Shown here: positions 28,762-38,069 of the stretch, one piece after another
How the letters are laid out: each line of letters begins with the position of its first letter
Position numbering within the stretch: position 1 is the stretch's first letter
Translations under genes and position numbers: made by a program
The notes under the pieces: model-generated
The model's database searches: none
What the model saw: only the letters and a program-made list of their open reading frames with translations
What the model was told of the DNA's origin: nothing
From: Candidatus Methanophagales archaeon
GTDB taxonomy: Archaea > Halobacteriota > Syntropharchaeia > Alkanophagales > Methanospirareceae
DNA length: 40,046 bases
Direction of reading: 5' to 3'
NCBI GenBank assembly: GCA_025435355.1
Contig: JANJFQ010000006.1
Location: 1-40,046 of the forward strand

Positions 28762-30060
28762 TCAACAGTGACACTTAAAGTTAACTATTGTGTGAACACG
28801 TAAAAAGTTCCCTAGTTTAGATGCCGAATTAGCTACTAACGTCCGAATCGTATCGATGACCGGCACATTCCTCTCCAATTTACCCCAGATTACCTTCAGA
28901 TTGTGCGCTGTGCATGCCAGATTATGCTCTACCCGAACCTTCTCTATTCCCCGTGTCAGAAACTCACGAAACTTCATATTCTGCTTAATGTTACCGAAAG
29001 GCCATTCAACAGTCTCCTTACGCTTCTTGTACCCCTCTTTACCCGTCTCCGACCGCATCTTAGCTACCATCCTACGGCGTTCGCCCTCGTAACCGTCACT
29101 GGTGATCTTCCTTATTTTGCCTTCACCTGCGCACTCCGATCTGACCGGGGATTCTGCACAGTTCGCACCGTAATAGGCGTACACAGGCTTACCGTTATAC
29201 TCATACTCTCCCTTTCTGCTGATTATCTCGCCATTGGGGCATAGAAACTGGTCTTTATCTTCGTCATAATAGAACGAATCCTTCGAGAATGGACTCATCT
29301 TCGGCTTATTGCCCTTCTGCTCCTGTGCCTGCTTGCTGTCTGTAATATAGGCATCCAACCCCATCTCTTCCAAATATCGCAGGTTAGCACCACTGAAATA
29401 TCCATTATCAAAACTCATTTTCGCACCTTCGGGCAATTCCCCCACGTTTTCCATCGTACTATTCACCTGCGGCTCTAACTGTGCGTGGTCAGTGCAATCT
29501 TGTGTAGCATCATTGGCGACGATTATCCCCGAATCGTGATCTGCGGTGATTTGCGGGTTGTATGACAATTCGATTCGCTCCTTCTTGTTCTTCATAAATC
29601 TTGCTTCAGGGTCAGTTATACTTACAGCGCTCTGTCCACTCTCATTTAGCTCCTCTTCAGCCTTATCGAGCTTTTCCATGATCCGCTCCTTCTGGCAATT
29701 CATATCATTCTTTTCATGCATTGGAATAATGATTGCCTCTTTTAATACCTGTTCCTTTATCCGGGGTTTAATGGAATTTTTTGTTCCAATGTCCGCCTTT
29801 ATACCTATCAAATCCGTGAGAAAATTTTCTAATTCTACAAGGTGAAGCAGGCTTACAGGCTCATTGAATTCTACAAACATATCCACATCACTCTTTTCCT
29901 TCTGCTCTCCTCTCACATAGGAGCCAAAAATACCCAGCTCTCTAACTTTAAACTTCTCTTTCAAAATAGCCTCGTTCTCTTTCAGTGTTTTCTTTAACTC
30001 TTCAAGTCCCTTTTTTCCCTTTTGTTTCATTTTGGTCTTGGTTATAGTGTTATTTAACAA
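28762..30060 (-). mobile_element. Chimeric ORF: MNT-type nucleotidyltransferase N-terminus joined to the C-terminal part of an IS1182-family-like transposase
   Basis: ELGIFGSYVRGEQKEKSDVDMFVEF then SITDPEARFMKNKKERIELSYNPQITADHDSGIIVANDATQDCTDHAQLEPQ...TVEWPFGNIKQNMKFREFLTRGIEKVRVEHNLACTAHNLK. Confidence 0.8.
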
Positions 30061-36049: not shown

Positions 36050-36300
36050 GTGGAAGTTGTGTCCTCCGATGACTTGTGCTTCCTACTTCCTTATTTCTAT
36101 CTTTGCCGCTAACTCCTGTGCATCCGGAGAACTTACATGGGCTTCACGATTATCGTTCTCTTCCAGTTCTTTAAAAATAAATGTAGAGTTTCAGCAAATC
36201 AGCAGGATTGTATGGAGGACGACCGGTGGTTTTGAGCTCAGCATGAACAAAATTAGATTGAGCACCGATCTCTTTAATAACCTTATCTCCTTTTGCTACA
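36050..36300 (-). pseudogene. IS1182-like transposase relic, internally deleted
   Basis: KEIGAQSNFVHAELKTTGRPPYNPADLLKLYIYF (N-terminal DUF772-like), then out of frame FKELEENDNREAHVSSPDAQELAAKIEIRK (mid-protein). Confidence 0.65.
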
Positions 36301-36324
36301 TAATAGTTTTCACACAGTCTGACG

Positions 36325-36409
36325 GTTCTGGTATATCTGAAGTTTTGCGGAACGAAGTGGCGCAAAATTTGGGCGAACAAAGTGAGCCAGATATGCTATG
36401 TTATACGCC
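36325..36409 (-). repeat. Structured element A (attC-like)
   Basis: Minus strand: GGCGTATAAC ATA GCATATCTGG...TTCGCCCAAATTTTGCG...CGCAAAACTTCAGATATACC. Outer arms pair, and TTTTGCG/CGCAAAA forms an inner stem. Confidence 0.6.
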
Positions 36410-36418
36410 GTTTTGCCA

Positions 36419-37357
36419 TTATTCACTCTCCTCATTTTTGAAATCAAATAACTTTGGAGATTTAAACTCTATTAGAACCTCTCTAATCCGCCTTTCTGCC
36501 AATTTTGCATAATTTTCGTCTATATCGTACCCTATATAATGCCTATTTGTTTTTACTGCTGCTATTGCCGCTTGTCCACTTCCGATGAATGGGTCTAAAA
36601 CAACTTCTTCTTCATAAGTATAAAGTTGAATTAATCTATAAGGAAGTTCCACTGGGAAGGGTGCTGGATGTCCAATCTTACGAGCTGCCTCTGCTGGAAA
36701 TGTCCAAACACTCTTAGTAAGTTCAAGAAATTCTTCTTTGGAAATGGTATTTTTTCTCTTGTTGCTATTTTTTCTACTAAATGTGCCCTTAGAAAAAACC
36801 AAAATATATTCATGAATATCCCTTAATGTTGGATTAGCGGCAGAAAGCCAACTTCCCCATGCCGTGGAAGGGCTGGAACTTGATGCTTTGTTCCAAATAA
36901 CCTCACCTCTCATTAAAAACCCCAAATCAAGCATATCATTCACTATAAAAGCATGGAGAGGGATATAAGGTTTCCTTCCTAAATTCGCTATGTTGATACA
37001 TGCTCTACCACCTGGAACAAGCACTCTGTGAACTTCTCTCCACACCCCTTTCAAAAATTTTAAGTACTCTTCAAGTGTAAAATCTTCGTCATATTCTTTA
37101 CCCACATTATAAGGCGGTGAGGTCACCATTAGATGAACACTATTATCAGGCAACTCCTCCATGTTTTCAGAAGATTTACAAAAAATTTTATCCATGAACT
37201 GCAAAGGGATAAGATTCTCTACATATTTGACTTTCTGCTCCTTAGGTAACCCTTCATATAATTTGCTCGTGTAAAAAGCGGTAGAATCATGATTTATTCT
37301 ACCTGGAGAACCGAAAGAGCTCGTTTGAGTTCCTCTCTTCCTTTGGTTAGTTTTCAT
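36419..37357 (-). CDS. Site-specific DNA methyltransferase (beta-class, TSPPY)
   Basis: HLMVTSPPYNVGKEYDEDFTLEEYLKFLKGVWREVHRVLVPGGRACINIANLGRKPYIPLHAF, VVLDPFIGSGQAAIAAVKTNRHYIGYDID. Confidence 0.9.
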   Translation of the reverse strand: MKTNQRKRGTQTSSFGSPGRINHDSTAFYTSKLYEGLPKEQKVKYVENLIPLQFMDKIFCKSSENMEELPDNSVHLMVTSPPYNVGKEYDEDFTLEEYLKFLKGVWREVHRVLVPGGRACINIANLGRKPYIPLHAFIVNDMLDLGFLMRGEVIWNKASSSSPSTAWGSWLSAANPTLRDIHEYILVFSKGTFSRKNSNKRKNTISKEEFLELTKSVWTFPAEAARKIGHPAPFPVELPYRLIQLYTYEEEVVLDPFIGSGQAAIAAVKTNRHYIGYDIDENYAKLAERRIREVLIEFKSPKLFDFKNEESE

Positions 37358-37668
37358 CCTTATCTTCCCTCCAATAATCTACCCACCTTTTGTATGGATT
37401 ATAATCTACTTTCGTTTTTTGCCAAGAAATTTCAATAATTTTGGACATTTTGTCTTCAACCAAACTTGACAATGCTTCCTTAGTTATCTCTACACCCCTT
37501 GGGTTTGTTCCAGGTTTAGGAAGTCTCACGAAGAGAACCTACTTCCATTCCAATCTTCCCAGCCCTTGAACTTTCTAACTCTGCAAGTTGAAACAGATAG
37601 GGTAGGCGTGTTTTAATTCTATTTACGAGTTTTGGATCCTCAAATATTTCTATCAAACAGCTGGACAT
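37347..37668 (-). pseudogene. Type II restriction endonuclease relic (N-terminal 50 aa and C-terminal ~60 aa in different frames)
   Basis: 37668..37516: MSSCLIEIFEDPKLVNRIKTRLPYLFQLAELESSRAGKIGMEVGSLRETS*. 37529..37347: RLPKPGTNPRGVEITKEALSSLVEDKMSKIIEISWQKTKVDYNPYKRWVDYWREDKDEN; overlaps the methylase start. Confidence 0.65.
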
Positions 37669-37700
37669 TTTTTATTCCTCCATTTTTTCATAAGCGAAAT

Positions 37701-37811
37701 GGCGTATAACGTTCCGAGCGTATCTGAAGTCCTGCGAAGCAGGATTTGGGCGAAGTGCCGAAGGCACAAAGCCAGAACCAGATACGCTCTGTTGTCCGAG
37801 TGCGTTAGCAC
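37701..37811 (-). repeat. Structured element B (attC-like), homologous to element A
   Basis: 11-bp perfect outer arms GAGCGTATCTG (37716-37726)/CAGATACGCTC (37779-37789); inner hairpins CCTGC-GAA-GCAGG (37731-37743) and GTGCC-GAA-GGCAC (37755-37767); flanked by GGCGTATAAC (37701-37710). Confidence 0.7.
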
Positions 37812-37859
37812 CGAAGCGAAGCTGAGAGTTGAACCTACTGCTCAAATGTATCTCGAACT

Positions 37860-38069
37860 TCACTCTGAATTCCTCTCCATGTCTTCAAGTTTTATTGTTT
37901 TCCCCTCCTCAAACTCTTTCTCAGCTTCTTTTAACATTATTATCTCTTCATCCGTCAAGATTCTATCCATGTCTATCATATGCTCCTTAATGTATGCTAT
38001 CTCCTTCTTTATCTCTCTTATCTCCTTAAGTATCAAAGCAACGTTAGCATCTTCCATGCCTATCACCAT
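37860..38069 (-). CDS. RelB/VapB-type antitoxin-like small protein
   Basis: LILKEIREIKKEIAYIKEHMIDMDRILTDEEIIMLKEAEKEFEEGKTIKLEDME; followed by ATGA overlap with a short MKFEIHLS... ORF. Confidence 0.6.
   Translation of the reverse strand: MVIGMEDANVALILKEIREIKKEIAYIKEHMIDMDRILTDEEIIMLKEAEKEFEEGKTIKLEDMERNSE

Follow-up and report, generated by a model that had tools for sequence, protein, structure and literature searches.

What kind of element folds on one strand, covaries in its arms and stands on both sides of a DNA methyltransferase gene? The question is raised by two elements, A and B, in the window, the whole 40,046-nt stretch of Candidatus Methanophagales DNA analyzed here. Both are very probably attC sites that delimit one cassette of a decayed chromosomal integron lying 5' of larA in an ANME-1 genome, the cognate integrase of which would be a HARP-like enzyme without an I2 helix.

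Anatomy of the Two Sites

The sequence confirms that A and B are homologous, lie on the minus strand where the original prediction placed them and flank the DNA methyltransferase (Table 1). Read on the methyltransferase strand, a site runs from R'' (ending ..YAAC) through one base, an 11-bp arm, a variable tip of one or two hairpins, the other arm and five bases to R' (GTT...). In B, R'' CGGACAAC (37798-37791) is followed by stem arms GAGCGTATCTG (37789-37779) and CAGATACGCTC (37726-37716), which form an 11-bp L stem with zero extrahelical bases, then by the spacer GGAAC and R' GTTATACGCC (37710-37701), giving spacers of 1 and 5 nt and a cassette junction at G37710|T37709. The extra hairpin claimed for B is there, its tip consisting of two hairpins. 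In A, R'' is CGGCGTATAAC (36410-36400), the stem is TAGCATATCTG/CAGATATACCA, and the spacer GAACC leads to R' GTCAGAC (36323-36317), which has one mismatch to GTTRRRY; since the stem carries two mismatches, A seems to be somewhat decayed. The attC boxes RYYYAAC and GTTRRRY, with a folding, covarying strand, were present in the sites tested. What the original prediction overlooked is that R' of B and R'' of A (GGCGTATAAC) repeat each other exactly in inverted form over a run of 10, a match far beyond chance, and it also missed the integrase remnant, the cassette rule, the missing extrahelical bases and the link to an I2-less integrase. Directly after site A stands a short ORF (TGRPPYNPADLLKLY; window 36171-36380, minus strand) that had no Pfam match and that resembles the N-terminus of an IS-type transposase.

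Table 1. Features of the putative cassette locus in the window (all coordinates are window positions).
Feature	Position	Strand	Evidence
Putative attC site B	37701..37798	-	Sequence; covariance model R1, 92.6 bits; BLAST copies in own genome
Putative attC site A, cassette 3' end	36317..36410	-	Sequence; covariance model R1, 59.4 bits
Putative integron gene cassette, 1,387 bp, from TT of B R' to G of A R'	36323..37709	-	R'(B)/R''(A) run of 10
N6/N4 DNA methyltransferase	36419..37357	-	PF01555 4e-48; PADLOC MTase_II 2.5e-139; 79% identity to Acetothermia methyltransferase
Remains of ThaI-type restriction endonuclease	37350..37668	-	PF15514 positions 1-41 and 150-203 of 203
69-aa antitoxin-like ORF, between integrase remnant and B	37860..38069	-	ORF alone
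Integron integrase remnant, 58 aa	38105..38278	-	TIGR02249 E 3.9e-8; PF00589 1.2e-8

Covariation and Distribution of the Sites

Compensatory changes in the paired arms had been proposed from A and B, and they hold across an alignment of 30 sites. A first count gave two-sided changes at 14/20 predicted pairs; for the full named structure, 18/28 pairs are altered on both sides. Two-sided cells number 85 vs. 36 in shuffled alignments, none of 500 shuffles reached as high a value, and all covariation measures collapse when the partners are slid. The sites beside integrases of other phyla have 27 different L stems, each of them perfectly paired.

A and B are also far from being the only copies. With B alone as the BLAST query, about a dozen more were found in its own genome (best E = 6e-17), and running a custom covariance model over this genome and its relatives, as had been suggested, returned many. 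This model (R1) matched 46/59 relatives at E 0.001, and its matches occur in 56/58 genomes of the archaeal class (Methanophagales/ANME-1 and relatives), with up to ~30 copies each. All 17 good genomes of the class were positive, and among well-assembled genomes one in a single contig (G035) has 16 sites and one in 10 contigs (G022) has 14; the model had no match in 12 other genomes of the phylum (G025-G028, G037, G038, G051-G055, G058). Most of the genomes surveyed are MAGs. An Altiarchaeales genome that we take to be a single-cell genome has 44 R1 matches, so that binning error is unlikely to explain everything. A search of IMG/VR with a near-consensus attC pattern gave no match.

A Chromosomal Locus With a Broken Integrase

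The integrase remnant of the window, a tyrosine-recombinase fragment, has larA on one side and the cassettes on the other; it lies 5' of larA and, read on the cassette strand, upstream of the cassettes. With just 58 aa of it left, the window has a cassette cluster but no working integrase, and its two sites, 1,387 bp apart beside a broken integrase, fit the definition of a CALIN (two or more attC sites separated by under 4 kb, with no integron integrase). A relative (G015) has an intact 347-aa integrase adjoining larA in the same arrangement and another (G005) has attC sites beside larA, which together point to one old chromosomal locus. It is through such relatives that the sites of the window can be linked to an I2-less integrase. 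The genome of the window (G000) carries further degenerate integrases of the family (L042:5082-5513, C199, and L043, C198), one of them with attC directly behind it.

Scanning 84,980 species genomes with five integrases as queries yielded 80 loci. Where a family locus has at least 1 kb downstream, attC was found there in 30/37 cases and was not seen in the other seven, and all 59 of the downstream matches (counted from the locus table) are on the integrase strand. An attI-like junction, TATRAACRA|GTT (core AAACRA|GTT), in which TATRAACRA precedes the R' copy of the first cassette, follows the integrase stop by 17-175 bp in 22/29 loci examined; the same method did not find it in seven, and none was found in the window. 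We claim this junction motif alone and not an attI dyad, the score of which was on average weakly above chance (6.0 vs. 3.9).

In Patescibacteria relatives the sites are on the opposite strand and 5' of the integrase, as in ordinary integrons. Patescibacteria integrases (L194, L191, L173-L176, L183) have no I2, and HARP is absent in those read; the site at L191 seems to have an extrahelical G. Bacteroidota integrases related to the family (L178, L184, L185, L188, L190, L192, L193) have no I2 and no R1 attC nearby.

An Integrase Without the I2 Helix

In the family members measured, patch III and LRHS are 61-64 aa apart, compared with 102 in IntI1 and, among Desulfobacterota IntIs measurable by pattern, 102-105 in nearly all. 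Two of the latter gave values of 59 and 69, probably because the anchor was misplaced, as both match the IntI model over its full length. VchIntIA (2A3V) is the top PDB match in both sequence and fold; the family integrase falls 42 residues short of it at the place of I2, where the predicted model has no helix (residues 248-264). The AlphaFold model built from 33 sequences is fair (pLDDT 84.5, pTM 0.54) and that from five sequences is poor (pTM 0.46), so our conclusions on fold rest on local secondary structure. Judged by sequence and prediction, the family integrase is without the ~40 residues that contain the IntI-specific I2 helix.

The integron integrase model TIGR02249 gives this integrase 237 bits, under its cut-off of 265; the NCBIfam model for archaeal XerA (NF040815) gives it 253 against a cut-off of 220 and is thus passed. 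In a tree built without the insert columns, canonical IntIs form a clade (100/100), the I2-less group stands beside it and XerC/D/A fall outside at 100/99; in the Xer grouping test the integrase does not group with XerA or XerC/D. The fork between the IntI and I2-less rows has no resolved order, and parsimony favors an ancestral absence of I2, as Xer is also without it.

It could be that a Xer-like enzyme acts here on double-stranded sites, and that the fold serves another purpose or is a relic. The XerA score and the Xer-like gap between patch III and LRHS speak for this, but the tree places the enzyme beside IntI and apart from Xer, and neither the 27 different perfect stems nor the tip hairpins with their two-sided changes can be accounted for unless the folded strand is under selection; we therefore regard a Xer-like enzyme of this kind as unlikely.

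attC Sites Without Extrahelical Bases

Two or three extrahelical bases are common to known attC sites (PMC2727003), and I2 docks the extrahelical bases of attC (PMC7790495). Among sites of the family described here, 0/30 and 2/54 have a bulge within 12 bp on the R''-L'' arm. An independent duplex scan near canonical IntI at L231 and L232 gave extrahelical bases on this arm in 6/6 sites, a small canonical control of two loci. The attC sites thus appear to correspond to their enzyme, with no I2 on one side and no extrahelical bases for docking on the other, although R1 was trained on bulge-free sites and may favor such sites. We had also considered asymmetry of the spacers (UCS) as a strong difference from canonical attC, and dropped it: a canonical site (L202) has a 2/3-nt spacer.

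These results bear on the possibility that A and B are attC sites of a canonical integron (a CALIN), with movement driven in trans by a canonical IntI and with the neighboring I2-less integrase unrelated to them. Many archaea have CALINs, IntI1 can recombine archaeal attC sites (PMC9668308), and the window is without an intact integrase. Nevertheless, no IntI over the curated cut-off was found in 39 genomes of relatives, the sites follow the I2-less integrase on its own strand at the 30 loci counted above, and extrahelical bases are missing. R1 was also blank at the canonical IntI loci L196-L215 and L227-L235, as it was at the Xer loci; its sole match in the IntI/Xer control set is in G110 (main contig 2.54 Mb). 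Integrases of both kinds occur in that genome, and there the R1-type attC lies by the I2-less enzyme and not by the canonical IntI. Movement by a canonical IntI is accordingly, in our estimate, very unlikely.

The Cassette Rule and Site Placement

The decisive test for attC identity is the cassette rule, by which the R' at the start of a cassette has to pair with the R'' at its end. For 24 neighboring pairs, from the window's own genome and its relatives, the complementary run had a mean of 8.0 and was at least 9 in 58%, compared with a mean of 4.3 and 3.9% in 2,127 null pairs drawn from different loci. The two boxes of a single site usually do not match beyond the core. The likeness to attC that had been noted from the fold is therefore borne out by the site architecture (R''/R' boxes, spacer, L stem and variable tip) together with this rule, which identify the sites as attC.

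Copies scattered at random, inside genes as well and without covariation, had been named as an outcome that would speak against such a reading. The midpoints of the sites fall in ORFs of at least 150 aa in 8% of cases vs. 63% at random, and a same-strand ORF ends at R'' in 76% of sites vs. 31% of random positions and 34% on the other strand; the arrays have a single orientation, with sites 3' of ORFs. Many dispersed copies, several of them degenerate, would suit a decaying repeat or a MITE-like element built around a palindromic core. Such an origin hardly accounts for copies that avoid genes, follow ORFs in one orientation and covary, nor for R'/R'' complementarity that holds between different neighboring copies and not within one, and we find it scarcely plausible. 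That the elements are transcribed RNAs, either terminators or mRNA stabilizers at gene ends, would suit a stable hairpin 3' of ORFs, but its probability is close to negligible, as an Rfam scan of the window returned one tRNA and no match at A or B, and terminators predict neither a shared inverted R'/R'' nor an integrase and attI-like site at the array start.

The HARP-Like Domain and a Proposed Mechanism

At the N-terminus of the family integrases, PF07443 (HARP) matches 17/33 members at E up to 0.1 (best 5e-5), mostly below the Pfam cut-off; the member shown scores 17.2 vs. a cut-off of 25. The top PDB match of the profile is the HARP domain of SMARCAL1 (4O66, E 0.0056), and the predicted model has five strands and two helices in residues 5-65. 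The HARP domain has five strands and two helices and is important for fork remodeling (PMC4666394). We infer that the HARP-like domain could read folded attC as a substitute for I2. A canonical IntI with an I2-length insert (L203; G088:C1:60-998) has the same HARP-like N-terminal domain and is possibly an intermediate.

Under the proposed mechanism, one strand of an attC site would fold, the integrase would pair this folded strand with attI or with another attC, and cassettes would move in circular form, as they do in known integrons. The folded-strand recognition done elsewhere by I2 and extrahelical bases would most likely come from the HARP-like domain, the 1- vs. 5-nt asymmetry of the spacers or both. 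The window cassette could move solely via an integrase acting in trans, as the window copy no longer encodes a working one. It is rather probable that we are dealing with a second class of integron, present in archaea and subsurface bacteria, in which a HARP-bearing integrase without I2 would recombine attC sites as folded single strands devoid of extrahelical bases.

Relation to Known Systems

Canonical integrons (class 1 or Vibrio-type, with IntI1 and VchIntIA) share with this system the R''/R' boxes, the cassette rule, single-orientation arrays, an attI with an AAACAA|GTT-like junction and a C-terminal SPLD motif in the integrase. They differ from it in that here I2 and the extrahelical bases of the L stem are absent, the N-terminus is HARP-like and the integrase is on the cassette strand. 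The system thus appears, by its sequence features, to have the general properties of an integron and to lack two that define the canonical one, I2 and extrahelical bases. The archaeal Xer enzymes (XerA, NF040815; PDB 4A8E, 5HXY) resemble the integrase in their I2-less catalytic domain and in the NCBIfam cut-off passed, whereas Xer is a separate branch and the family here has a HARP-like domain and downstream attC arrays. The integrases of the reverse integrons of Spirochaetes are, as far as is known, canonical IntIs. These integrons are alike in having the integrase directed as the cassettes, a reverse orientation noted in PMC9668308.

Archaeal integrons were described in 2022 with software for which the IntI domain is obligatory (Ghaly et al., 2022; PMC9668308). 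They are alike in their attC arrays in archaeal MAGs, the order of integrase, attI and cassettes, and the sharing of cassettes across domains. However, IntIs were accepted in that study solely with the IntI-specific domain (two overlapping HMMs), which the integrase here does not have, and integrons were found in 75/6,718 genomes, whereas sites were found here in 56/58 genomes of one class. ANME-1 cassette clusters may be among the genomes listed in that study. None of the papers covered by our literature search describes an integron integrase that is devoid of I2 or that bears a HARP domain. As standard software demands the IntI domain, the I2-less integrase is by design invisible to IntegronFinder. 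On the reading given here, integron cassettes are near-universal in ANME-1, the methane oxidizers of sediments.

Integron integrases are thought to have shifted from double- to single-stranded recombination by gaining I2, an idea that is short of proof, since IntI1 does not function once I2 is deleted (PMC7790495). A natural I2-less integrase beside IntI, with attC sites devoid of the bases that I2 reads, would make the question directly testable. If the proposal is true, this enzyme may reflect the stage that preceded the gain of I2, or single-strand recombination may have been solved here independently.

The Methyltransferase Cassette

The endonuclease of the window cassette has kept its N- and C-terminal pieces and has lost the middle (~109 profile positions) by deletion. 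By its domain content, the cassette carried a type II restriction-modification pair that is now broken and has turned into an orphan methyltransferase. The same pair is intact in a MAG of bacterial Acetothermia (L156:2880-4434; endonuclease 210 aa, methyltransferase 314 aa), between two R1 sites and behind an I2-less integrase, and its methyltransferase is 79% identical to that of the window. This cassette, common to an archaeon and a single bacterial MAG contig, points to gene traffic between the domains. The other cassettes of the arrays encode mostly proteins without known function, together with a Barnase-like nuclease, a DUF5615 protein, a radical SAM protein and a kinase.

The 69-aa antitoxin-like ORF upstream of B had no family match at 0.001 and is possibly the rest of a first cassette, the second gene of which is cut by B. 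An ORF at window 37672-37863 (minus strand) overlaps its end and runs into attC B, and may be a toxin gene cut by that site. In a relative (G009, L067:372-1415, minus strand), a 78% identical methyltransferase follows a truncated attC site, with the endonuclease absent and with a PIN-like, toxin-like ORF and a short ORF upstream. Elsewhere in the window (28762-30060, minus strand), an ORF has the look of a fusion, with an MntA-like nucleotidyltransferase joined to a C-terminal part of transposase type.
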